A DNA stretch of 43,424 nt from Hyphomicrobiales bacterium. Its GTDB lineage: Bacteria; Pseudomonadota; Alphaproteobacteria; Rhizobiales; Devosiaceae. Below are positions 14,280 through 29,922 of the stretch, piece after piece. Where the stretch lies: NCBI GenBank assembly GCA_027065555.1, contig JAMONS010000040.1:1-43424 (forward strand), given 5' to 3'. The position numbers and the translations under genes were made by a program. The first letter of the stretch is position 1. The number at the start of each line of letters is the position of its first letter. The notes under the pieces were generated by a model, which saw only the letters and a program-made list of their open reading frames with translations, was not told the origin of the DNA and searched no databases.

Positions 14280-14960
14280 ATGTTTGCAGTAATAAAAACT
14301 GGTGGCAAGCAATATAAAGTTGCTGAAAACGATATTATTAAAATTGAAAAATTAGAAGCACAGGCAGGACAAGATGTTTTGTTTGACAATGTTTTAATGG
14401 TTGGCTCAGGTGCTGATGTAAGCATTGGTGAGCCATTAGTAGATGGCGCAAGTGTTGTTGCCGAATTAATTGAAACCAAAAAACAAAAAACCATTATCAT
14501 CTTTAAGAAAAAACGTCGTCAAGGTTATCGTCGTCGCAATGGTCATCGTCAGTTGCTAAGCACAGTGCGCATTGTTGAAATTCTTACAGATGGTAAAAAA
14601 CCAAGCCCTAAAAAGGCAGTGGCTAAAAAAGTGGCGGATAAAAAGCCAGCACAAGCAAAAGCTGCTCCAGCGAAAGCGGCTACAAAAAAAGCAAGCGCTG
14701 ATTTTATTGATGACATCAAGCTAATTTCTGGTGTTGGCCCAGCCCTTGAGAAAAAATTACATGCAGCAGGTGTTAAATCACTTAAAGATATTGCAGCTTT
14801 TAAGAAAGCCGATATTGAGCGTGTTGATGCTGAGTTAAAATTTGGTGGTCGTATTGAGCGTGAAGAATGGATTGAGCAAGCAAAAGAACTTATTGCTGGC
14901 AAAGCCCCACGTGCAAAAGTCGATCAAAAAGCGGCTAAAGCAAGCAAAGATAAGAAATAG
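14280..14960 (+). CDS. rplU: 50S ribosomal protein L21 with C-terminal helix-hairpin-helix extension
   Basis: A 226-residue protein. Residues 1 to about 103 are the L21 core ([20 protein letters not shown] at the start, and [16 protein letters not shown] binding 23S rRNA). A Lys/Ala/Pro-rich linker follows at about 104-138. Then a domain at about 140-205 has [20 protein letters not shown], a helix-hairpin-helix-like pattern also seen in DUF4332-type and radixin-like domains. The tail is lysine-rich. Plain L21 is about 103 residues. The extended form occurs in many Hyphomicrobiales; its role is not established. The Shine-Dalgarno is AGAGAG. It is co-transcribed with rpmA 11 bp downstream. Confidence 0.96.
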
Positions 14961-18451: not shown

Positions 18452-18751
18452 ATGGCTAACACACAAATAGTGCAAAATGAAATATTAACCTTGCCACCGG
18501 TTGTGGATTTGGACGCATTAGATTCAATATCGGAGCAACTAATTGAGCAACTTGAGTGTGGCTCAGTAAATATTGATGCAAGTTCGGTTGATCGTGTAGC
18601 GACCAATGCTCTTTTGATGTTGATAAGCGCAGCAAATAGCGCCGAACAGGCCAATATTACCCTCACAATTTCAAACCCAAGCGAGCCTATGCTTGGGGCA
18701 ATAGAGCGATTGGGGCTTAGCGAAAATTTTGCCCCGCTTATAAAAGGATAA
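18452..18751 (+). CDS. cheS: STAS-domain chemotaxis protein CheS
   Basis: A 99-residue single STAS (anti-sigma antagonist-like) domain, with LPPVVDLDALDSISEQLIEQ at the start and VDRVATNALLMLISAANSAE at the conserved helix. In Sinorhizobium meliloti the small protein CheS, encoded directly before cheY1-cheA, binds CheA and speeds drainage of phosphate through CheY1. Size, domain and gene position match here. The residue before ATNALL, where STAS switches often carry a phosphorylatable serine, is Val; family CheS proteins work without phosphorylation as far as known. It is the first gene of the cheS-cheY1-cheA-cheW unit, 8 bp ahead of cheY1. Confidence 0.82.
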   Translation: MANTQIVQNEILTLPPVVDLDALDSISEQLIEQLECGSVNIDASSVDRVATNALLMLISAANSAEQANITLTISNPSEPMLGAIERLGLSENFAPLIKG

Positions 18752-18759
18752 AGTAAATA

Positions 18760-19119
18760 ATGCGTATTCTAACAGTTGATGATTCTAAAACAATGTTGGC
18801 CATGTTGCAGCACACACTTTCTGATGCTGGCTTTGATGTTTTGCAAGCAGAAGACGGCCAGCAAGGGCTTGATGTACTTGCCCAAGAAGAAGTTGATATA
18901 GTCATTACCGATATTAATATGCCTGTTATGGATGGGATTGAGTTCATTAAAAATGTCCGCTCATCTGGCAAATTTCAATCCTTACCAATTCTTATTCTTA
19001 CAACTGAAAGTTCACGTGAAAAACGTGATCAAGGTCGTGCGGCTGGTGGAACTGGCTGGATAGTTAAGCCATTTGATCCTGAAAAATTAATTTCGGTGAT
19101 TAATCGAGTAGTTCACTAA
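18760..19119 (+). CDS. cheY1: Chemotaxis response regulator CheY1
   Basis: A 119-residue stand-alone receiver. The acidic pocket is Asp7/Asp8, the phosphoacceptor Asp51 (ITDINMPVMDG), Thr81/Thr82, and Lys103 in VKPFDP. It lies between cheS and cheA, the position of S. meliloti CheY1, which acts as a phosphate sink draining phosphoryl groups from the motor regulator CheY2 via CheA. That role is therefore inferred from position. Position 100 is Trp (GTGWIVKPF), a common feature of cheA-linked CheY proteins in this group. Confidence 0.92.
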   Translation: MRILTVDDSKTMLAMLQHTLSDAGFDVLQAEDGQQGLDVLAQEEVDIVITDINMPVMDGIEFIKNVRSSGKFQSLPILILTTESSREKRDQGRAAGGTGWIVKPFDPEKLISVINRVVH

Positions 19120-19161: not shown

Positions 19162-21294
19162 ATGAGTGATTTAGACGAATTTAAAGCTACCTATTTTGAT
19201 GAATGTTCTGAGCTATTAATAGATCTTGAGGAGCAATTTATCGCCATTCAAGATGGTGATAAAAGCTCGGATCGTATGAACGCAATATTTCGTGCTATTC
19301 ATTCAATAAAGGGTGGTGCGGGAGCATTTGGCTTCACTTCACTTGTTGGTTTTGCGCATGAATTTGAAACTTTGCTCGATTTTGTGCGTAATGACAAAAT
19401 TGATTTTACTAATGAAGTGATTAAACTTTGTATTCGCTCAAATGATTTAGTTGCTGATTTTGTTGAAGCGGCAAGAAATGGCGAGGAGCTTGATCCTGAA
19501 TACGGGGCGACAGAAAAAGCAAAATTTGTTGCTCTTTGTAAAGCAAGTTCTGGTGATAGTGGTGATGAAAGCGGCGAGCCTATGGAGGAGTTCGATATTG
19601 AGTTTACTCCTGTACTTGTTGAGATGGAAGCGCCAACAGAAAAAGTAACAGAAGGCTGGTTGGTTGAATTTATTCCCTTTAGAGAACTTTATACTAGCGC
19701 AAATGATCCGCTATTATTATTGCGTGAATTAGCAGAGCTGGGGGACGTTGAAGTAAAAGCAATATTAAAAGATATCCCATTATTAACCGATTTTGAGCCA
19801 TTTTCTGTCTATTGTACGTGGGAAATAACTATCAAGGACAAGGATATTGAAGAGGAAAGCATTCGTGAGATATTTGAATTTGTTGATGGCGATTGCGAGT
19901 TAAAAATTACTAAGTTTGAAATGCCAGTAGATGAGCAAGCATTTAAGGAGGACGCAAAAAGCGAAGATCTGGAAGAAGATGAAGATATGCCAAGTTTTGC
20001 AGATCTAGCAGCTGAAATTGCGCCAAAACCAGAACCAGAAAAACTTAAGCCTAAAGTTGCGGATAATGCTGCAGATGGCGCAAAAGCTGCACCAAAAGCA
20101 CCCCCCGTTGGTATGCAATCAATTCGTGTTGATCTTGATAAGGTTGATCGAGTGGTAAATATGGTTGGCGAATTAGTTATTACCCAATCAATGTTAACCC
20201 AACAAATGGACGATAATCTACGTCATCGTTATCAAGAATTAGTTCGTGGACTTGAAGTTTTGGCAACTACCACTAGAGGTTTGCAAGATAGTGTGATGGC
20301 AATTCGTGCCCAACCTGTAAAATCTGTGTTTTCACGTATGCCACGTTTGGTGCGTGAACTTGCTTCAAAAACTGGTAAAAAAATCAAACTCGAAATGGTT
20401 GGTGAAAATACCGAAATTGATAAAACGGTTATTGAGCAACTTTCAGACCCTCTAACGCACATGATTAGAAACTCTGCTGATCACGGCATTGAATCAGTTG
20501 AAAAACGTGTTGAAAGTGGCAAGGAAGAAACAGGCACTATTCGACTTTCTGCTGAACAAGCTGGCGGCTCGATTTTAATAATAATTGAAGATGATGGCGC
20601 TGGCATTAATCGTGAACGAGTATTGCAATTAGCACGTGAAAAAGGCGTGGTTGGTGAAGAACAACAACTTAGCGATGATCAAATAGATAATTTAATTTTT
20701 GCACCCGGTTTTTCAACCGTTGAAGAAGTTTCTGATCTTTCGGGGCGTGGTGTTGGTATGGACGTTGTTCTTTCAAACATCAATAAAATTGGTGGTTCGG
20801 TAATTGTGAAATCTGTTCCCGGTAGAGGCACACGTATGACATTAAGATTGCCGCTAACCTTAGCGGTGCTTGATGTGATGTTGGTTAGAGTTGCTGGCTG
20901 CCCCTATGTTATTCCGCTTTCGTCAATCGTTGAAACCATGCAATGCGCACGAGTTGAATTTGGACGATTACCAACTGGCGCACGTGTATTGAAGGTGCGA
21001 GGGGAATATGTGCAATCAATGGATCTAGCATCTCATTTTGAAATGACAACCGATGTGGATGAAAAAGATCGTTTTGTTGTTCTGTGCGAAGCTGAGGGGA
21101 CTAACAAATTAGCCTTAATTGTTGATGCAATAATTGGGCAGCAGCAAGTTGTTATTAAAAGTTTAGAAGAAAATTTTGAAAGAATTGAAGGAATTGCAGG
21201 CGGCACAATTCTTGGTGATGGATCGGTCGGTCTAATTGTAGATGTTCAGGGTCTAAAAAATTCAATATCTAATCAGCGAACTGTTGCTGCATAA
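19162..21294 (+). CDS. cheA: Chemotaxis histidine kinase CheA
   Basis: A 710-residue cytoplasmic kinase. P1/HPt (1 to about 105) has phospho-His47 in FRAIHSIKGGAGAFGF. A P2-like region lies at about 165-255 (WLVEFIPFRELY onward), then an acidic linker at about 265-310. P3 dimerization begins at MQSIRVDLDKVDRVVNMVGE. P4 ATPase has the N box HMIRNSADHGIE, the G1 box EDDGAGI and the G2 box DLSGRGVGMDVV. The C-terminal P5 CheW-like domain ends near 700. All catalytic motifs are present. GGAAG precedes the ATG. It receives receptor signals through CheW and phosphorylates CheY1, CheY2 and CheB. Confidence 0.97.
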   Translation: MSDLDEFKATYFDECSELLIDLEEQFIAIQDGDKSSDRMNAIFRAIHSIKGGAGAFGFTSLVGFAHEFETLLDFVRNDKIDFTNEVIKLCIRSNDLVADFVEAARNGEELDPEYGATEKAKFVALCKASSGDSGDESGEPMEEFDIEFTPVLVEMEAPTEKVTEGWLVEFIPFRELYTSANDPLLLLRELAELGDVEVKAILKDIPLLTDFEPFSVYCTWEITIKDKDIEEESIREIFEFVDGDCELKITKFEMPVDEQAFKEDAKSEDLEEDEDMPSFADLAAEIAPKPEPEKLKPKVADNAADGAKAAPKAPPVGMQSIRVDLDKVDRVVNMVGELVITQSMLTQQMDDNLRHRYQELVRGLEVLATTTRGLQDSVMAIRAQPVKSVFSRMPRLVRELASKTGKKIKLEMVGENTEIDKTVIEQLSDPLTHMIRNSADHGIESVEKRVESGKEETGTIRLSAEQAGGSILIIIEDDGAGINRERVLQLAREKGVVGEEQQLSDDQIDNLIFAPGFSTVEEVSDLSGRGVGMDVVLSNINKIGGSVIVKSVPGRGTRMTLRLPLTLAVLDVMLVRVAGCPYVIPLSSIVETMQCARVEFGRLPTGARVLKVRGEYVQSMDLASHFEMTTDVDEKDRFVVLCEAEGTNKLALIVDAIIGQQQVVIKSLEENFERIEGIAGGTILGDGSVGLIVDVQGLKNSISNQRTVAA

Positions 21295-21311: not shown

Positions 21312-21800
21312 ATGGAAGCTCTTAATATTAAAGACGATTATGAAAATGGTGAAATATCAGCAGAAAACTCTTTGCAGCTAATAGCTTTTTCTCTTGGTGA
21401 TCAAACCTATTCAGTTGAAATTACTACGGTTCGTGAAATTCGTGCTTGGAATGGGGCAACTCCCCTACCAAATACTCGTGAATTTGTGCGTGGCGTAATA
21501 AACTTACGTGGAACTATTGTGCCAATTTTTGATCTTCGTGCTCGCTTTGGTGATGGACAAACATCTCCTACAAAAACTCATGTGGTTGTTGTTATGTCGG
21601 TTGGTGAAAAATGGGTTGGCATTTTGGTTGATGCGGTTAGCGATATTCTAACCATTAATAAAAACGATATTCACCCAGTTCCCGAAGGCAATTCATCAGG
21701 GGATAGCGAATTATTACGTGGCATTATCACTCATAATGACCAAATGGTTGGCATGATTGATTTACATGCGGTAATTGATGGCGCTAAAATAGAAGAATAG
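21312..21800 (+). CDS. cheW: Chemotaxis coupling protein CheW
   Basis: A 162-residue protein, mostly one CheW domain: LIAFSLGDQTYSVEITTVRE, then the loop TPLPNTREFVRGVINLRGT, IVPIFDLRARFG and WVGILVDAVSDIL. It joins receptors to CheA. The start follows AGGAAA at good spacing, 17 bp after cheA. A strong terminator follows, so it closes the first chemotaxis transcription unit. Confidence 0.95.
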   Translation: MEALNIKDDYENGEISAENSLQLIAFSLGDQTYSVEITTVREIRAWNGATPLPNTREFVRGVINLRGTIVPIFDLRARFGDGQTSPTKTHVVVVMSVGEKWVGILVDAVSDILTINKNDIHPVPEGNSSGDSELLRGIITHNDQMVGMIDLHAVIDGAKIEE

Positions 21801-21824: not shown

Positions 21825-21853
21825 AAAAGCGCTGAATTTTCAGCGCTTTTTTA
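21825..21853. terminator. Bidirectional terminator between cheW and cheT
   Basis: AAAAGCGCTG at 21825-21834 pairs with CAGCGCTTTT at 21841-21850 (a 10-bp stem). T-runs are available in both directions, suitable for the convergent cheW and cheT genes. Confidence 0.93.
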
Positions 21854-21862
21854 TTGGCTTAG

Positions 21863-22216
21863 CTAAAATAAATCTACTTCACCATGCTCAATACGTGCTG
21901 ATATACCAGATAGTTTAGGATTTGCTAATTCATCAAGTGTCATGTGCGACCAAATCTCATCAAATTGCTTATTATTGATTGAACCATCTTTCTCGACCAT
22001 TTTGCGAATAGCTTTTGCCATATTGTCACAGCGCTGCTCGATTCTATCTTGACCTTGAAGGGCATGGATAATCTCATTAACAGCCTGTTTATTGGCTTCT
22101 TTACTTGATATATTACTCTCTTGTAAAATATCTAGCGCTTTAATAATTCCGTTCACCAACTCTTTGGTCTGGCGAGTGGTTTCATCAAGTTCTCTAGCTA
22201 GTCTTTTTAATGGCAT
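21863..22216 (-). CDS. cheT: CheT-like putative CheY phosphatase with a CheZ-type DxxxQ motif
   Basis: A 117-residue, almost wholly helical protein. The helix EIIHALQGQDRIEQRCDNMA contains QDRIEQ, a D-x-x-x-Q motif like the catalytic Asp/Gln of E. coli CheZ (F-Q-D-L-T-G-Q). S. meliloti CheT, encoded in the che operon beside cheD, is reported to have a predicted helix with DxxxQ and to speed CheY1-P decay. Size, motif and location agree. Here, unusually, the gene is on the opposite strand, convergent with cheW and divergent from cheD. The C-terminus is GEVDLF, resembling the CheD tail. The ATG at 22216 has no clear Shine-Dalgarno. Homology to CheT is inferred, not aligned. Confidence 0.68.
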   Translation of the reverse strand: MPLKRLARELDETTRQTKELVNGIIKALDILQESNISSKEANKQAVNEIIHALQGQDRIEQRCDNMAKAIRKMVEKDGSINNKQFDEIWSHMTLDELANPKLSGISARIEHGEVDLF

Positions 22217-22320: not shown

Positions 22321-22337
22321 GTTAGCAATTCGCTAAC
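22321..22337. promoter_or_regulatory. Palindrome in the cheT/cheD divergent region
   Basis: GTTAGC at 22321-22326 and GCTAAC at 22332-22337 flank AATTC. It lies in the 177-bp gap from which cheT and cheD are transcribed in opposite directions, so it is a candidate shared operator or a leader hairpin of cheD. Confidence 0.35.
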
Positions 22338-22393: not shown

Positions 22394-22984
22394 ATGGCAA
22401 GAAGAGAAGCGCTTCCTAACGGGTTTGATAGAGGTGTAGTCACAACGGTTCATCAGGGCGATTGCCATGTATCGAATGAAAGCGACGTTACGTTTTCTAC
22501 AGTGCTTGGCTCATGTATTAGTGCATGTGTTCGTGATAAGGTTTCAAATGTTGGCGGCATGAACCATTTTCTTTTGGCTGAGCAATCAGGATCTGCTAAA
22601 AATCGCTTTGGCGCTTCCGCTCGTTATGGCGCTTATGCAATGGAAGAATTGATAAATATGGTGCTAAAACAAGGTACTGGCTTAAAGAAAAATCTAGAAA
22701 TAAAAGTTTTTGGTGGCGGAAAAATTAACGCCTCGCTAGCTGATGTTGGCGCTGCAAATATCGACTTTGTGCATAGATTTCTTAGCGATGAGGGATATAG
22801 AATTACTAGTGAAGATATGGGCGGAACATTTGCTCGTAGGGTTCTTTATAATCCAACTAGCGGTCGAGTTCGAATTAAACGACTTGATAGTGAAGCTGGG
22901 CAAAATATTGTTCGTGAAGAATTCAAGATTGCAAGTTCTCAAAAAGTTGCTAAACCAGCAGATGATGATATTGAATTGTTCTAG
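22394..22984 (+). CDS. cheD: Chemoreceptor glutamine deamidase CheD
   Basis: A 196-residue enzyme that deamidates receptor glutamines to glutamates during adaptation. The catalytic pair is Cys41 in TVLGSCISACVRD and His58 in VGGMNHFLL, 17 residues apart as in known CheD proteins. KVFGGGKI and NIDFVHRFLSDEGY are also typical. The C-terminal 30 residues run beyond the catalytic fold and end ADDDIELF, resembling the CheT end. AGGG lies about 9 bases before the ATG. It begins the second chemotaxis block (cheD, receptor, cheR, cheB, cheY2). Confidence 0.93.
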   Translation: MARREALPNGFDRGVVTTVHQGDCHVSNESDVTFSTVLGSCISACVRDKVSNVGGMNHFLLAEQSGSAKNRFGASARYGAYAMEELINMVLKQGTGLKKNLEIKVFGGGKINASLADVGAANIDFVHRFLSDEGYRITSEDMGGTFARRVLYNPTSGRVRIKRLDSEAGQNIVREEFKIASSQKVAKPADDDIELF

Positions 22985-23078: not shown

Positions 23079-23115
23079 TATTCATATAAGTTAACGAAGT
23101 GCTAATTTGCGCAAA

Positions 23116-24648
23116 ATGTCAAATTTAGGATTTTGTGGACTTAAATATATAATGCAAACAAGATTTACTTTTTCGATAATTGTTAGTTTAGCTTTTGCAA
23201 CTGTTTTGGCATTAGCTCTAATCATTATTGCAGTTTTTGGGCTGACAATGTTTAGCCTTGCAATGGTTGGGCTAACTTGGTTGCTTTTAAGCGCCATTAT
23301 TATCTTTCTTGCAAAAGGTTCACAACAAAAAGAAAAAACTCAATTTTCTAAGTTGGCACAATTAGTTGGCTATAAAAACACGCCTCCAAGAAGAAATTTT
23401 ACCTTTATAAAAGAAATTATTGCACATCAATATGCAGAATTATCAAAAACAAAATCATATCAAAAGGCATTTATTCTATTAAAAATTCCAGCTCTTTTGA
23501 TAGATGAAAATAGAGAGATAATGGCAGCTAGCGAGGGGTTTTTAGATCTAAGCCCATCGGTTACAAAAGATATGCCGCTGGCAATTTTATTTGGCGGTAA
23601 TTTCACCCTCCCAAAAGATAAAGAAACTATATCAATGCGTGTTACTCTTGATGGGCGACCTTATGATTGCATAATCACAAAAATAAATGAGACACAATTT
23701 GTAATTAGTTTCAAAAAATCTGGACTTATTGTTGGTAAAGGGCAATTAGCAAAATTTACTAATGCGATTGCTAATGGTAATGTTGGTTTTAGGTTTTTAC
23801 CAAATGATGTAGTTTTGTTCCCAGCTCTTGAAGAGTTAAATATTGGGTTAGATATTCTTGAGAGATCAACAAAAGCAATCGATGAGATTGTGCAAGGTAA
23901 TGTTAGCTCAATTAGCCTTCCAAATGCAGGTCTAAATTCTCAAGTTAATAATGTGCATGAGGCTATCTCAAACCTACAAGAGCAAAAATATAGTGAGCAA
24001 AATCAACGCATTAAGCTTGAAGATAAATTAAATAAAATAGCCAATATGCTAGATGCCTATAAAGAAACATTAGGAAATATCAACCAAGTTGCAAAAAATA
24101 GCCAACATGCGCTTTTGGGCACAAATTCTATTGTTAATAATATAAAAACAAGCGCTAATAAAACTAATAATATTAGCAAGCAGGCCAATGATTTGATCAA
24201 GCAAGCAGGCCAGACAACAAAACAAGCAAATCTATCTATTAAAAATGTTAGCGAGTTAACAGGCGAAATTGATAATATGATGATAGCTATTGAAGATATT
24301 TCATTTAGAACTAATTTATTGGCGCTAAATGCTGCGGTGGAGGCCGCCCGTGCTGGAGAAAAGGGTGCAGGATTTGCAATAGTTGCCGAAGAAGTGCGCA
24401 CTTTAGCAAAAACCAGCGCAAAATCTGCAAAAGAAATAAGAATGTTGGCAAGCAAAGGCCATAGCGAAAGCCAGCAAAGCTCGCAACATAATGATGATTT
24501 AGAAAAAATAATTATAAATTTAGAAGAACATTTACAAAATCTAAGTAATGAAACGTATATAATAGCAGATAATGTTGAAAAAGGTCATGATGAGTTAGAG
24601 AATTTTGAAGGCGAGATTGAGAAAATTGTGAAAATTTCACAAAATTAA
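23116..24648 (+). CDS. Membrane-hairpin chemoreceptor without a periplasmic domain
   Basis: About 510 residues from ATG 23116; TTG 23107 and ATG 23152 are alternatives, none with a good Shine-Dalgarno. Two adjacent hydrophobic helices (about 17-65, [20 protein letters not shown] and [18 protein letters not shown]) leave almost no periplasmic loop. A PAS-like cytoplasmic region at about 100-205 includes [21 protein letters not shown] coiled coil and a signalling tip with [20 protein letters not shown] follow. No HAMP domain or C-terminal tether pentapeptide is evident. Its place between cheD and cheR suggests it is a core receptor of this cluster, sensing an internal signal. In S. meliloti the cluster receptor gene precedes cheS instead. 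Confidence 0.85.
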
Positions 24649-24733
24649 AATATTCTCCTAAATTATTCTTTTTAAAAAATAACTATATTGCCTGCATTTT
24701 AACATCAAACATTAGTTGGAGTTTTGTTATATT

Positions 24734-25597
24734 ATGGAAAATAAAGATATTGAATTGAGCGAAAAAGAATTCTCTATGGTAAAAGAGAGAATTTTTGAAG
24801 TTGCAGGCATTTCATTAAGTGATGCTAAGCGCACTTTGGTTATTTCTCGCCTAAGCAAAGTAATAAAAAAACTATCTCTAAATAGTTTCTTGGATTATCT
24901 AGATTTTCTTAAAGGTTCAAAAGCCAGCAAAAAAGACGCACAAGATTTTGTAAATGCTTTAACTACTAATCTTACCAGATTTTATCGTGAAGATCATCAT
25001 TTTGATCATTTAGAAAATTATATAAAGCAAATCATTGCCACAAAACCACGCACCAGCAATAATGGAAAACCACGTCTTAGGATTTGGTCGGCTGGTTGTT
25101 CATCAGGGCAAGAGCCATATACTATTGCTATGTGCCTATATAATAAATTCCCAGAATTAAAACGTTGGGACTTTAAGATATTAGCTAGTGATATTGACAC
25201 CGAAGTGCTAAAAAAAGCAGCGGGCGGAATTTATCCTGAAACAGAATTAGCTGGCCTAAGCGCAAATCGTGCAAAAATGTTTGAACGTCCAGGAAATGGC
25301 ACAATAGTAATACCAAAATATATACGTGAGACGGTGATTTTTAAACCATTAAACCTGTTTCACAAGTGGCCAATAAAAGGCCCATTTGATGCTATTTTTT
25401 GCAGGAACGTAGCAATTTATTTTGACAAGCCAATACAAAACCAACTTTTTTCTCAACTAAGCGAAGTATTAGCGCCAGATGCCTTCATGTATATTGGCCA
25501 TTCTGAAAATGTTGGCCGCAATAACCCACAATTCTCATTATCTGGAAAGACCCTATATCAATATCATGCGCCGCAAAATTCAAGAGCAGTGGCATGA
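24734..25597 (+). CDS. cheR: Chemotaxis protein methyltransferase CheR
   Basis: 287 residues from ATG 24734; a GGAG lies 12 bases upstream and a TTG six codons earlier is possible. The N-terminal all-helical domain is about 1-85, with NLTRFYREDHHF (family N-L-T-x-F-F-R-E). The SAM-binding domain has RIWSAGCSSGQEPYT and later GPFDAIFCRNVAIYFD. It methylates receptor glutamates using S-adenosylmethionine. No C-terminal TPR is present. It overlaps cheB by four bases (ATGA), so the antagonistic pair is translationally coupled. Confidence 0.96.
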   Translation: MENKDIELSEKEFSMVKERIFEVAGISLSDAKRTLVISRLSKVIKKLSLNSFLDYLDFLKGSKASKKDAQDFVNALTTNLTRFYREDHHFDHLENYIKQIIATKPRTSNNGKPRLRIWSAGCSSGQEPYTIAMCLYNKFPELKRWDFKILASDIDTEVLKKAAGGIYPETELAGLSANRAKMFERPGNGTIVIPKYIRETVIFKPLNLFHKWPIKGPFDAIFCRNVAIYFDKPIQNQLFSQLSEVLAPDAFMYIGHSENVGRNNPQFSLSGKTLYQYHAPQNSRAVA

Positions 25598-26631
25598 GCG
25601 TAAAAGTTTTAGTGGTCGATGATAGTGCGCTTATTCGCTCCGTTTTAACAAAGGTGCTAAATAATGATGCGGGTATTAAAGTTGTGGGTTCTGCAATAGA
25701 TCCGATAGATGCCCGTAAAAAAATCAAAGAATTAAATCCCGATGTTTTAACATTAGATATTGAAATGCCCAATATGAACGGGCTTGAGTTTTTAGATAAA
25801 TTAATGCGCCTGCGCCCCATGCCGGTTGTGATGGTTTCAACATTAACGCAAAAGGGGGCAGAAGAAACGCTTTTAGCTCTTGAATTGGGAGCAGTGGATT
25901 TTGTTGCAAAACCAAATGCCAATCTAACCACAGGCCTTGATGAATTTGGGGCAGAGGTTTGTCAAAAGGTTCATGCAGCTGCAAAAAGCTCTGCCCGCTC
26001 TCGTGGTATGCGAGCAAAAGTCCCGCAAATTGCAATAACTAGCGCTAGCGCACCTCAAGGATCGCTAATAGCCATTGGTGCTTCAACTGGTGGTGTTGAA
26101 GCAATAAGGGCAGTGTTAATAAAAATGCCAAAAGATTGCCCGCCAATTGTTATCACTCAACATATGCCCGTTGGCTTTACTGAGCGATTTGCCACTCGTC
26201 TAAATGATTTATGTGACATTGAAGTTTGCGAAGCGCAAGATCGCATGGTGCTTGAAGTGGGTCATGCCTATATTGCTAAAGGTGGGGTACATTTACGAGT
26301 TGAAAAAAGCTCAGGCCAATTAAAATGCCGCCTTGAGGATAGCGATGAAGTTTCGGGGCACAAGCCAAGTGTTGATGTTTTATTTAAATCGGTTGCTAAA
26401 AATGTAAGCAACAAAGCTATTGGCGTTATTCTAACTGGCATGGGTCGTGATGGTGCAATAGGCCTTAAGGAAATGCAGCAAGCAGGTGCATTTACCATTG
26501 GTCAATCTGAAATATCTTCCCTTGTTTATGGCATGCCAAAAGTTGCTTTTGAAGAGGGGGCTGTTAGTGAGCAAGCAGATATAGATAATGTTGCTTCTCG
26601 CATTGCAATGGCGACAACAAAATTAAAATAA
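25594..26631 (+). CDS. cheB: Chemotaxis response regulator methylesterase CheB
   Basis: A 345-residue protein. The receiver domain (1 to about 120) has phospho-Asp55 in LTLDIEMPNMNGLEFLDKL. A linker follows. The esterase domain (about 155-340) has the catalytic triad Ser164 (GASTGGVEA), His190 (ITQHMPVGFTERFATRL) and Asp287 (LTGMGRDGAIGL). It removes receptor methyl groups and deamidates glutamines when phosphorylated by CheA. The residue numbers nearly equal those of the E. coli enzyme, indicating an intact full-length protein. Confidence 0.97.
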   Translation: MSVKVLVVDDSALIRSVLTKVLNNDAGIKVVGSAIDPIDARKKIKELNPDVLTLDIEMPNMNGLEFLDKLMRLRPMPVVMVSTLTQKGAEETLLALELGAVDFVAKPNANLTTGLDEFGAEVCQKVHAAAKSSARSRGMRAKVPQIAITSASAPQGSLIAIGASTGGVEAIRAVLIKMPKDCPPIVITQHMPVGFTERFATRLNDLCDIEVCEAQDRMVLEVGHAYIAKGGVHLRVEKSSGQLKCRLEDSDEVSGHKPSVDVLFKSVAKNVSNKAIGVILTGMGRDGAIGLKEMQQAGAFTIGQSEISSLVYGMPKVAFEEGAVSEQADIDNVASRIAMATTKLK

Positions 26632-26764: not shown

Positions 26765-27154
26765 ATGCCAAAAGCTAGTGCAATTAGTGTGTTAATAGTA
26801 GATGACCAGCAATCAATGCGTGGTATCTGTAAATATATCCTCAATCAACTTGGGTTCAACCAAATCACCGAAGCGAAAAGCGGACGTGATGCGCTTGGAA
26901 AGTTAGAAAAAACTAGAGTTGATCTAATTATTTCTGATTGGAATATGGACGATATTGACGGGCTTACTTTGCTTAAAGTATTGCGCAAACACCCCAAAAC
27001 CGCAAAAATGCCGTTTATTATGGCAACTGGCCGTTCAGATAAAGAACAAGTGCAAGAAGCAATTTCTTGTGGTGTAAATAATTATATTATCAAACCATTT
27101 GATGCAGGTTCAATGAAGAAAAAAATTGAAGCAGTTATTGGCGTTCTAAGCTAA
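26765..27154 (+). CDS. cheY2: Chemotaxis response regulator CheY2 (presumed motor regulator)
   Basis: A 129-residue receiver with Asp13/Asp14, phospho-Asp58 (LIISDWNMDDIDGL), Thr88 and Lys110 (IIKPF). The ISDWNMxxxDG segment is typical of motor-binding CheY proteins, more so than CheY1 of this cluster. It is last in the cheD-receptor-cheR-cheB-cheY2 block. By analogy with S. meliloti, CheY2-P acts on the flagellar switch and loses phosphate back through CheA to CheY1. No flagellar genes are in this window. Confidence 0.93.
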   Translation: MPKASAISVLIVDDQQSMRGICKYILNQLGFNQITEAKSGRDALGKLEKTRVDLIISDWNMDDIDGLTLLKVLRKHPKTAKMPFIMATGRSDKEQVQEAISCGVNNYIIKPFDAGSMKKKIEAVIGVLS

Positions 27155-27428: not shown

Positions 27429-27989
27429 ATGGAATTAAGTTGGATAATATTGGGGCTAATTGTAATTGGCGCTATCTATGCAATTATTATTTATAATAAT
27501 TTTATCAAAAACCGCCAATTAGTTGAAGAAGGCTGGTCAGGAATTGATGTGCAGCTTAAACGTAGAGCAAATCTTATTCCTAATATGCTTGAAACCGTTA
27601 AGGGCTATATGGGGCATGAAAAGGGAGTGCTTGAGGCAGTAACAAATGCCCGTGCCGCTGTGCAAGGCGCAGGGAACACTGGCCCAGCTGAGCGCTCAAA
27701 ACTTGAAGGATTGCTTTCTGGTGCTTTAGGAAAATTAATAGCTGTTGCAGAAAATTATCCTGACCTTAAAGCCAATACTACTTTTTTGGAATTTCAAGGT
27801 TCTTTGCAAATGGTAGAAGATGAAATTCAACTCTCACGCCGCTATTATAACGGCTCGGTGCGCAACTTAAACGTATTAGTGGAATCCTTTCCATCAAACC
27901 TTATTGCAAATGCTTTTAAGTTTATTAAGGCTGAATATTTTGAACTTGAAAATGAAGCTGAGCGAGCAGTGCCAGATGTTTCCTTTAAT
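27429..27989 (+). CDS. LemA family protein
   Basis: 187 residues from ATG 27429, which is preceded by AGGAGAAGA; the eleven-codon longer frame is rejected on that basis. One N-terminal membrane helix (WIILGLIVIGAIYAIIIYNN) is followed by the LemA helical domain: EEGWSGIDVQLKRRANLIPN, the signature of the family, then ENYPDLKANTTFLEFQ and SRRYYNGSVRNLN. LemA proteins are anchored in the inner membrane with a helical bundle outside; the function is unknown, but they are repeatedly paired with DUF2207 or TPM-domain proteins as here. The frame's stop codon is at 27990-27992. Confidence 0.93.
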
Positions 27990-29922
27990 TAGCAGCTTGC
28001 AAATAACTAAGGTCTTGCAAATAACTAAGGTCTTGCAAAGGTTTATATTTAGCAAAATATTGCTACTCATTAGCTTGTTATTTTTTATACTCCCGCTCCA
28101 TGCTCAAGAAGTAATAAATTCATATTCAACAGATATCGTTGTAAATATTGATGGCTCGGTTGAAATAGTTGAATATATTGATGTGCGTGCTGAGGGGGAT
28201 AAAATCAAGCGTGGGATATATCGAGATATTGCTACCACTATGAAAAATGATGACGGCTCAGATTTTCGATCAGAACTTGAAATTATTTCTATTAAAAAAA
28301 ATGGGCAAGACGAGCCATTTTCTACTAAAAAAATTACCAATGGAAAACGCATTTATATTGGTGAGGCCTCAGTTTTTTTAGAGCCCGGTAATTATCACTA
28401 TATGATTAAATATTCCATGTCACGCCAAGTTAGATTTTTTGAAACCCATGACGAGTTATTTTTCAATGTTATAGGTCATTTTTGGGATTTCCCAATCAAA
28501 CAAGCCATTGCTCGCATTAGGCTTCCCGATGGAGCAATTATTTCGGATTTGGTTGGCTATACGGGCGCAACTGGTTCAACTGAACAGGCGCTAACAATCA
28601 CTAAAACCAGCAATAATAGTGCCGTTTTTCAGGCAACTCGCCCTCTAAATTCTTATGAAGGCATGAGTGTGGCGGTTAAATTTCAAAAAGGCATAATTGC
28701 TGAGCCTGCTGGAATTGAAGAAACAGCGCTTTATCTTTCAGATAGGCGAAATATTATAATTCCCATCAGCGGAGCTTTTTTGATGCTGTTTTATTATCTA
28801 TTTGCATGGAATAAAATCGGACGAGACCCTAAAAAAGGAACTATTATTCCGCTTTTTTATCCACCCAAAGGATTTTCTCCAGCGCTTATTCACTATATTT
28901 GGAAAATGGGCTGGAAGAAAAATGGTTGGACAGCCTATAGCGCTGCTTTGCTTAATCTTGCCATCAAGGGTCTAATAACAATAGATAAAAAGAAGGGCTC
29001 AACAAGAATTGATCTAACTAACGAGCCAGCAATATCTTTGCCACCGGGTGAGCAAATTATTTATGATTATATTCAATCAAAGGGCACGGTATTTTTTAAT
29101 AAGGCACATGGAGTAAAATTAAATAAGACCAGAGAAGAATTTGTCAAAATAATTGGCACCGAAAACCGCCATGCTTTTTTCAAAAATAATGCTTCTTATG
29201 TTATTATAGGGTTTGTTCTTTCTGCTATTAGCTTAATTATGATGATAGTTTTTGGATTATTGAGCCCTGTTTATGCTGTGTTCGCAATGGTCATTGGAAT
29301 TGCTATCGCTTTGATAATTGCTGCATTTAGCAATGTTTGGCTTAAGAGTGGATTTGCAAAAATATTTATTTTTGTTTGGCTATTTATAATGGCATTTAAT
29401 GTGTCTGGCACATTACTATCTTTTGCTCAGATAAATTCAAACATTAGTTCAATAATCGCAACAACTAGCATAGTCGCTCTTAACGTGTTATTTGCATTTC
29501 TTATGCGCGCTCCCACTGTGCATGGACGAAAAACCATGGATCAAATTGATGGCTTTCGCATGTATCTTGAGACAGCTGAAAAACAGCGCCTTAATATGAT
29601 TGATGAGCCAGAAATGAGCGTTAAAAGATTTGAAAAAATATTGCCATTTGCCGTGGCTTTAGGCGTTGAAAAACCATGGTCGCAACATTTTGAAAGCGAA
29701 TTAGCACGAAACGCAGTTTCTGATGCTAGTAGTGGGTATAATCCTACTTGGCTAAGCGGCACTTCTTATTCTGCCTCAAGCCTAAGTAAATCTATGTCAA
29801 AACTAGCAACAGGCATGAGCGCCTCAATGATTGCGGCGCAACCTTCAAGCTCTTCTTCATCTGGGTTTTCTGGTGGTGGTGGAGGCGGTGGGGGCGGCGG
29901 CGGTGGCGGTGGCGGCTGGTAG
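27976..29922 (+). CDS. DUF2207 domain-containing membrane protein with Gly-rich C-terminus
   Basis: About 648 residues from ATG 27976, overlapping lemA by 17 bp. A signal peptide (hydrophobic LLLISLLFFILPLHAQ, cleaved near AQE) leads into a periplasmic DUF2207 domain with a VEIVEYIDVRAEGDKIKRGI segment. A membrane helix follows at about 255, then a cytoplasmic part starting WNKIGRDP, and further helices between about 405 and 500. The C-terminus is Ser-rich then FSGGGGGG through about 16 glycines to a final Trp, a feature common in DUF2207 proteins. The start is uncertain: the signal-peptide n-region carries a duplicated LQITKV. Function unknown; it probably works with LemA. Confidence 0.82.
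   Translation: MFPLISSLQITKVLQITKVLQRFIFSKILLLISLLFFILPLHAQEVINSYSTDIVVNIDGSVEIVEYIDVRAEGDKIKRGIYRDIATTMKNDDGSDFRSELEIISIKKNGQDEPFSTKKITNGKRIYIGEASVFLEPGNYHYMIKYSMSRQVRFFETHDELFFNVIGHFWDFPIKQAIARIRLPDGAIISDLVGYTGATGSTEQALTITKTSNNSAVFQATRPLNSYEGMSVAVKFQKGIIAEPAGIEETALYLSDRRNIIIPISGAFLMLFYYLFAWNKIGRDPKKGTIIPLFYPPKGFSPALIHYIWKMGWKKNGWTAYSAALLNLAIKGLITIDKKKGSTRIDLTNEPAISLPPGEQIIYDYIQSKGTVFFNKAHGVKLNKTREEFVKIIGTENRHAFFKNNASYVIIGFVLSAISLIMMIVFGLLSPVYAVFAMVIGIAIALIIAAFSNVWLKSGFAKIFIFVWLFIMAFNVSGTLLSFAQINSNISSIIATTSIVALNVLFAFLMRAPTVHGRKTMDQIDGFRMYLETAEKQRLNMIDEPEMSVKRFEKILPFAVALGVEKPWSQHFESELARNAVSDASSGYNPTWLSGTSYSASSLSKSMSKLATGMSASMIAAQPSSSSSSGFSGGGGGGGGGGGGGGGW
27996..28031 (+). repeat. Perfect 18-bp tandem duplication inside the DUF2207 signal region
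   Basis: CTTGCAAATAACTAAGGT at 27996-28013 is repeated at 28014-28031, with a third partial copy (CTTGCAAAGG) following. In frame it gives LQITKV twice, lengthening the n-region of the signal peptide by six residues. Confidence 0.97.

Follow-up and report, generated by a model that had tools for sequence, protein, structure and literature searches.

A CheT-like DxxxQ protein encoded antisense beside cheD as a candidate CheY-P phosphatase in an alphaproteobacterial family

How phosphate is removed from CheY-P in alphaproteobacterial chemotaxis systems without CheZ is an open question, the usual answer being a CheY that acts as a phosphate sink. In CheZ, an aspartate contacts the CheY lysine and a glutamine positions the water for attack on the acyl phosphate. 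CheT has been reported only recently (original report, Agbekudzi et al. 2024). As reviewed in PMC12654446, CheT of S. meliloti carries a DXXXQ motif, dephosphorylates one of two CheYs, and forms a complex with CheR, and CheS of the same organism is a STAS-only protein. Rhizobia are described as being without CheZ (PMC8429497), whereas the genome studied here encodes one.

The window analyzed here is a stretch of 43,424 nucleotides from a Hyphomicrobiales bacterium of the Devosiaceae (GCA_027065555.1, contig JAMONS010000040.1), and all positions below refer to it unless a locus is named. It contains a chemotaxis cluster in the order cheS (STAS), cheY1, cheA, cheW, X, cheD, MCP, cheR, cheB, and cheY2, with X on the minus strand and all other genes on the plus strand. 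X (21863..22216) is an open reading frame with an ATG start that encodes 117 amino acids. As the sequence-only reading of this DNA had placed it, X lies between cheW (21312..21800; PF01584, E 4e-37) and cheD (22394..22984; PF03975, E 8e-25), and it overlaps neither. Compared with its nearest relative, X has a dN of 0.040 and a dS of 0.42 (dN/dS about 0.1), and the differences fall mostly at third positions, indicating purifying selection. The same reading was right to label the product of cheS (18452..18751; STAS_2) a CheS, which is 33% identical to that of S. meliloti (E 4e-13), and to see a second CheY in the cluster. The products of cheY1 (18760..19119) and cheY2 (26765..27154) are 56% and 45% identical to S. 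meliloti CheY1 and CheY2, respectively. The remaining genes are cheA (19162..21294; Hpt, H-kinase_dim, HATPase_c, and CheW domains), the MCP gene (23107..24648; MCPsignal, E 4e-27), cheR (24716..25597; PF01739, E 3e-60), and cheB (25594..26631; PF01339, E 3e-61).

X resembles CheT in several ways. Both are small helical proteins encoded adjacent to cheD in a cheS-cheY1-cheA cluster, both carry LQxxDxxxQ and, after it, a short hydrophobic element (KLADM in CheT, TLDEL in X), and both have an acidic C-terminal tail that ends in F (DFEAF in CheT, EVDLF in X). They differ in that cheT follows cheD and shares its strand. The QDRIEQ stretch noted in the sequence-only reading is present within LQGQDRIEQR (residues 53-62; 22031..22060, minus strand), in which Asp57 and Gln61 are putatively catalytic. 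Q56, D57, R58, Q61, and R62 of LQxQDRIxQR do not vary across 30 orthologs, and neither do W89, E96, L97, and the terminal F117, so that the Q, D, and Q match the CheZ-type DxxxQ with its preceding Gln. Orthologs were found in 35 of the 61 genomes searched, all of them among the 37 genomes of the source family; a single-sequence search returned none from the 24 genomes that represent other families in the order, and none was found in plasmid records. The two genomes of the source family that have no X also have no match to cheA, and one of these two is 60% complete.

Profile searches assigned X to no other family. Its sequence and alignment drew only chance-level matches from Pfam, NCBIfam, and PDB sequences, no Pfam or NCBIfam family claims it, and PF04344 (CheZ) gave no match to X up to E 10 and was absent from the families listed for the 30 orthologs up to E 1. 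The AlphaFold model of X alone, built from a two-row alignment, is weak (pLDDT 62, pTM 0.45). It has helices at residues 3-33, 39-53, and 56-77 that form a hairpin, and the motif, which the sequence-only reading had put in a long helix, lies at the start of the last long one; the placement of Gln on a CheY, which that reading named as a check, is beyond a model of this quality. Structural matches to the model (VIA-align) were generic, unrelated helical hairpins with Z up to 9.0, below the 13 advised for helical bundles, and thus no family can be assigned from the fold. CheZ is not among the 50 structural matches listed, which carries no weight either way.

The profile link of X to CheT runs through the wider CheT-like set. 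Comparison of X with this set (S. meliloti CheT and the four position-selected small proteins described below), to which Shinella CheT and the protein of locus L111 had been added, gave an E-value of 4e-5 with DxxxQ in register, and 7e-4 when L111, which had been chosen by motif, was left out (both single-comparison values). The controls, which were unrelated helical proteins of these operons and the sequences of X or of the CheT set in reverse, gave 0.04-0.6. S. meliloti CheT by itself gave no BLASTP alignment with X, and the X-side profile (A1) against it gave p 0.12, with the register correct. Used as a query, it found no homolog among 240 genomes of the class and only Rhizobiaceae matches in plasmids. 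X is best named a CheT-like DxxxQ protein, neither a CheZ nor a demonstrated CheT ortholog.

A class-wide profile search with the X orthologs showed that related segments also occur in much larger proteins. The matches outside the source family were proteins with an MCP signaling domain and no recognized ligand-binding domain, for which no family name was found. After the signaling hairpin they carry LQFQDRxxQR, then a "TLGEMR"-like element, and then the C terminus DDIELF; profile-profile comparison of these C termini with X gave a probability of 96.5 and an E-value of 8e-10. They are like X in the DxxxQ segment, in the short element (here "TLxEMR"), and in the DIELF tail, and they are unlike X in that the module is joined to the MCP signaling domain in one polypeptide, encoded on the sense strand after cheB, as in the three mapped clusters L178-L180. 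Candidate receptor-phosphatase fusions with the DxxxQ segment and a DIELF-like tail (loci L054-L061, L065, L144-L150, L152-L160, L162, L163, L165, L168, L169, and L172) lie mostly in che clusters near cheD. Three further loci from the first class-wide search were discarded: L063 and L064 lack a DxxxQ protein of the type looked for, and the protein at L062 resembled an unrelated hydrolase.

Small che-cluster proteins were also examined in named records. S. meliloti CheT reads LQGIDLAVQ ... GDFEAF, and the unnamed proteins of Komagataeibacter, Ruegeria TM1040, Novosphingobium, and Sphingomonas, which were selected by position, contain [LI]QxxDxxxQ in all four cases. By profile comparison, X belongs to a class-wide module that consists of a DxxxQ helix, a short "TLxEL" element, and an acidic C-terminal tail ending in ELF or DLF. 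It occurs either as small che-cluster proteins, S. meliloti CheT among them, or as the C terminus of MCP-type proteins that lack a ligand-binding domain. Across 28 diverse module sequences, Q54, D57, and Q61 are the sole fully invariant columns, and the C terminus is nearly always [DEG]-[IVLM]-[EDN]-[LF]-F. Of 19 genomes of the class, 16 have a module match no more than 6 kb from cheD, these 19 being the cheD-bearing genomes in which the CheD of the source cluster found a homolog.

The C terminus of the module is shared with CheD. Alphaproteobacterial CheD proteins commonly end in this way, and the CheD of the source cluster ends in DDDIELF, of which DIELF (22967-22981) is nearly invariant in the family. 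In the source genome, a DNA pattern encoding this kind of C terminus had five matches, and among the open reading frames listed only X and CheD have it at the gene end; the reversed pattern, as a control, gave no match. The sequence-only reading had missed both the tail common to X and CheD and the receptor-fused form of the module. By its position and the common C-terminal tail, the DxxxQ cassette is tied to cheD. These are the more surprising parts of our results: we found no published description of the class-wide cassette, the receptor-fused form, or the CheD-shared tail in a literature search that covered few subscription journals.

The relationship to CheZ rests on intermediate sequences, because the direct profile comparison of X with CheZ was not significant (E 0.0095) and was outscored by the reversed X control (0.0019). 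The receptor-fused C termini matched CheZ at E 1e-5. A profile built from X, the fusions, and the CheT-like proteins, with no CheZ in it, was run over 289 genomes of the class; its next matches numbered 23 at E 1e-4 to 1e-2, of which at least 15 are called CheZ by PF04344. Most of the matches to CheZ span 60-70 profile positions, which is beyond the motif alone. CheZ (PF04344; E. coli 1KMI) is like X in that its QDxxxQ catalytic signature lies on a helix that follows another helix. It is unlike X in having an N-terminal part, a lead-in AxxFQD, and a CheY-binding tail of the SQxxIDxLL type. CheZ proteins, at about 200 amino acids, form a long hairpin that dimerizes into a four-helix bundle; X has 117 amino acids, and its weak model gives a hairpin of a generic kind. 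Overall, the invariance of the motif, the links by profile to both CheZ and the CheT-like set, and the position in the cluster support the CheZ/CheT-type reading of X well.

X is most likely a CheY-P phosphatase of the CheT/CheZ type, its activity, CheY target, and tail partner being putative, and it is best read so because of the Asp/Gln chemistry of CheZ and the activity reported for CheT. We consider it probable that X represents, in stand-alone and CheT-like form, a module of DxxxQ CheY-P phosphatases, and for X we infer docking on CheY, loss of phosphate, and tethering by the tail. X would fold as a helical hairpin and dock on a phosphorylated CheY of its own cluster. Its Asp57 and Gln61 would work as their CheZ counterparts do, the Asp contacting the active-site lysine of CheY and the Gln orienting the attacking water, which would speed the loss of phosphate. 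The EVDLF tail would hold X at a partner in the chemosensory array that is shared with the other proteins carrying this kind of tail, namely, CheD and the receptor fusions.

It must be considered that X may be a degenerate, noncatalytic relative of CheT and CheZ that acts as a scaffold or competitor on CheY or the array, the real drain being CheZ together with the CheS/CheY1 sink. The source genome does encode a canonical CheZ (221 amino acids; L101 3898-4563, G000:C137; PF04344, E 6e-10; tail AIDELF). This protein is homologous to E. coli CheZ 1KMI, and its gene lies outside the che cluster, directly after a further CheY-like gene. The two devices acting on phosphate drain that the sequence-only reading had counted, X and CheS, are therefore an undercount. 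In addition, X is half the size of CheZ and has no CheZ-type CheY-binding tail. Nevertheless, this alternative is unlikely, as Asp57 and Gln61 are invariant in the 30 orthologs and are two of the three invariant columns in the 28 module sequences, and as CheZ was matched in 13 of the 35 X-bearing genomes of the family and had no match in the other 22. Because CheZ was not matched there, X is the only DxxxQ candidate found in those 22 genomes. The limited distribution of CheZ also means that X may be the ancestral terminator of the cluster and CheZ an extra in some members.

The tail of X (EVDLF, residues 113-117; 21866..21880, minus strand) is a putative docking peptide whose partner is probably the same for X, CheT, CheD, and the fusions. 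A CheY-binding helix of the FliM/CheZ type (SQxEIDxLL) is disfavored, as the register differs: CheZ tails in the class end in SQxDIDxLL/F and X ends in GEVDLF. CheR would be the first candidate partner because S. meliloti CheT was reported in complex with it. The canonical CheR pentapeptide is xZxxZ, where Z is F, W, or Y (PMC7390727); EVDLF fits in spacing and charge but has Val at position 2 and so does not qualify, whereas DFEAF of CheT fits fully. The CheR of the source cluster is without the loop insertion present in the pentapeptide-binding CheR of Salmonella. The cluster MCP, whose C terminus was read directly, has neither the DxxxQ module nor the tail. It also has no C-terminal pentapeptide, and in most relatives it shows poor conservation (27-45% identity) or was not found, while its neighbors are well conserved.

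The orientation of X, which the sequence-only reading had called the unusual part relative to the rhizobial cheD-cheT order, is fixed across the family. X is antisense to its che neighbors and beside cheD in all 20 relatives whose cluster was fetched, and its other neighbor is cheW wherever the fetched stretch extended that far. A second family also has an antisense DxxxQ gene beside cheD (locus L111). There, a small protein with the tail EEDVTFF is encoded between cheY2 and cheD (L111 891-1448 / L176 7815-8399) and precedes cheD, like X. Within the source family the gap between cheW and X is variable, sometimes reaching kilobases, and X stays immediately adjacent to cheD. Because the gap varies, X adjoins cheD, and the region between them carries a conserved repeat, X appears to be linked more closely to cheD than to cheW.

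The sequence-only reading had credited X with its own terminator and promoter region, of which the terminator is borne out and the promoter is less well supported. An intrinsic terminator (21825..21850, minus strand; 11 pairs, 5 of them G-C) lies between the convergent X and cheW genes, one such element having been found where 0.4 was expected. A scan for sigma-70 promoters gave nothing above chance, and nothing at all on the minus strand. The divergent region that X and cheD share is 177 bp long and contains an inverted repeat, GTTAGCAATTCGCTAAC (GTTAGC-AATTC-GCTAAC; 22321..22337, no strand assigned). This repeat is conserved in 21 of 21 genomes of the family, with 13-17 of its 17 positions kept, 86-115 bp from the start of X, and the copy at 22321-22337 is the best such site in the whole source genome. 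It was not found at the other antisense locus, L111. Since X diverges from cheD across a conserved operator-like repeat, its expression could be set jointly with adaptation, through cheD, and apart from cheA and cheW.

The pairing with cheD can also be taken to mean that X is mainly an adaptation factor, whose tail would recruit CheR, CheB, or CheD-related machinery to receptors and whose DxxxQ helix would be a receptor or CheD contact. The divergent arrangement and the tail in common with CheD are consistent with this, as are the complex of S. meliloti CheT with CheR (PMC12654446) and the location of the receptor-fused versions just after cheB. We regard it as distinctly unlikely, given that X retains the catalytic Asp/Gln pair and the preceding Gln as in CheZ and given the reported phosphatase activity of CheT toward a CheY (PMC12654446). 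That X is a small helical protein of unrelated function with a coincidental DxxxQ is highly improbable and already disfavored, since the absence of a database family and the nonsignificant direct comparison with CheZ are outweighed by the invariant motif, the fixed position in che clusters, the profile evidence relating X to the CheT-like proteins and the fusions, and the retrieval of CheZ by a CheZ-free profile.

A phosphatase role for X, if true, would supply a function for proteins without any Pfam or NCBIfam model. X is the only such candidate in the 22 X-bearing genomes mentioned above, its module is fused to receptor-type proteins in other families, and it is tied to cheD; the phosphatase reading is thus a concrete, testable hypothesis for CheY-P removal without CheZ. 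It is possible, though somewhat short of an even call, that Alphaproteobacteria share a portable CheY-P phosphatase cassette, consisting of a DxxxQ helix and an array-docking "DIELF" tail and borne on small proteins (X and CheT being examples) or directly on cytoplasmic chemoreceptors, with CheD docking at the same partner via the same tail. If so, some receptors would bring their own signal-terminating phosphatase.

Two other genes in the window were also noted. Upstream of the cluster, an open reading frame at 14280-14960 encodes a ribosomal protein L21-like product with a long C-terminal extension that ends in a helix-hairpin-helix-like segment. Downstream of cheY2 and directly after a LemA-like gene, 27904-29922 encodes a large membrane-like protein with a poly-glycine C terminus.
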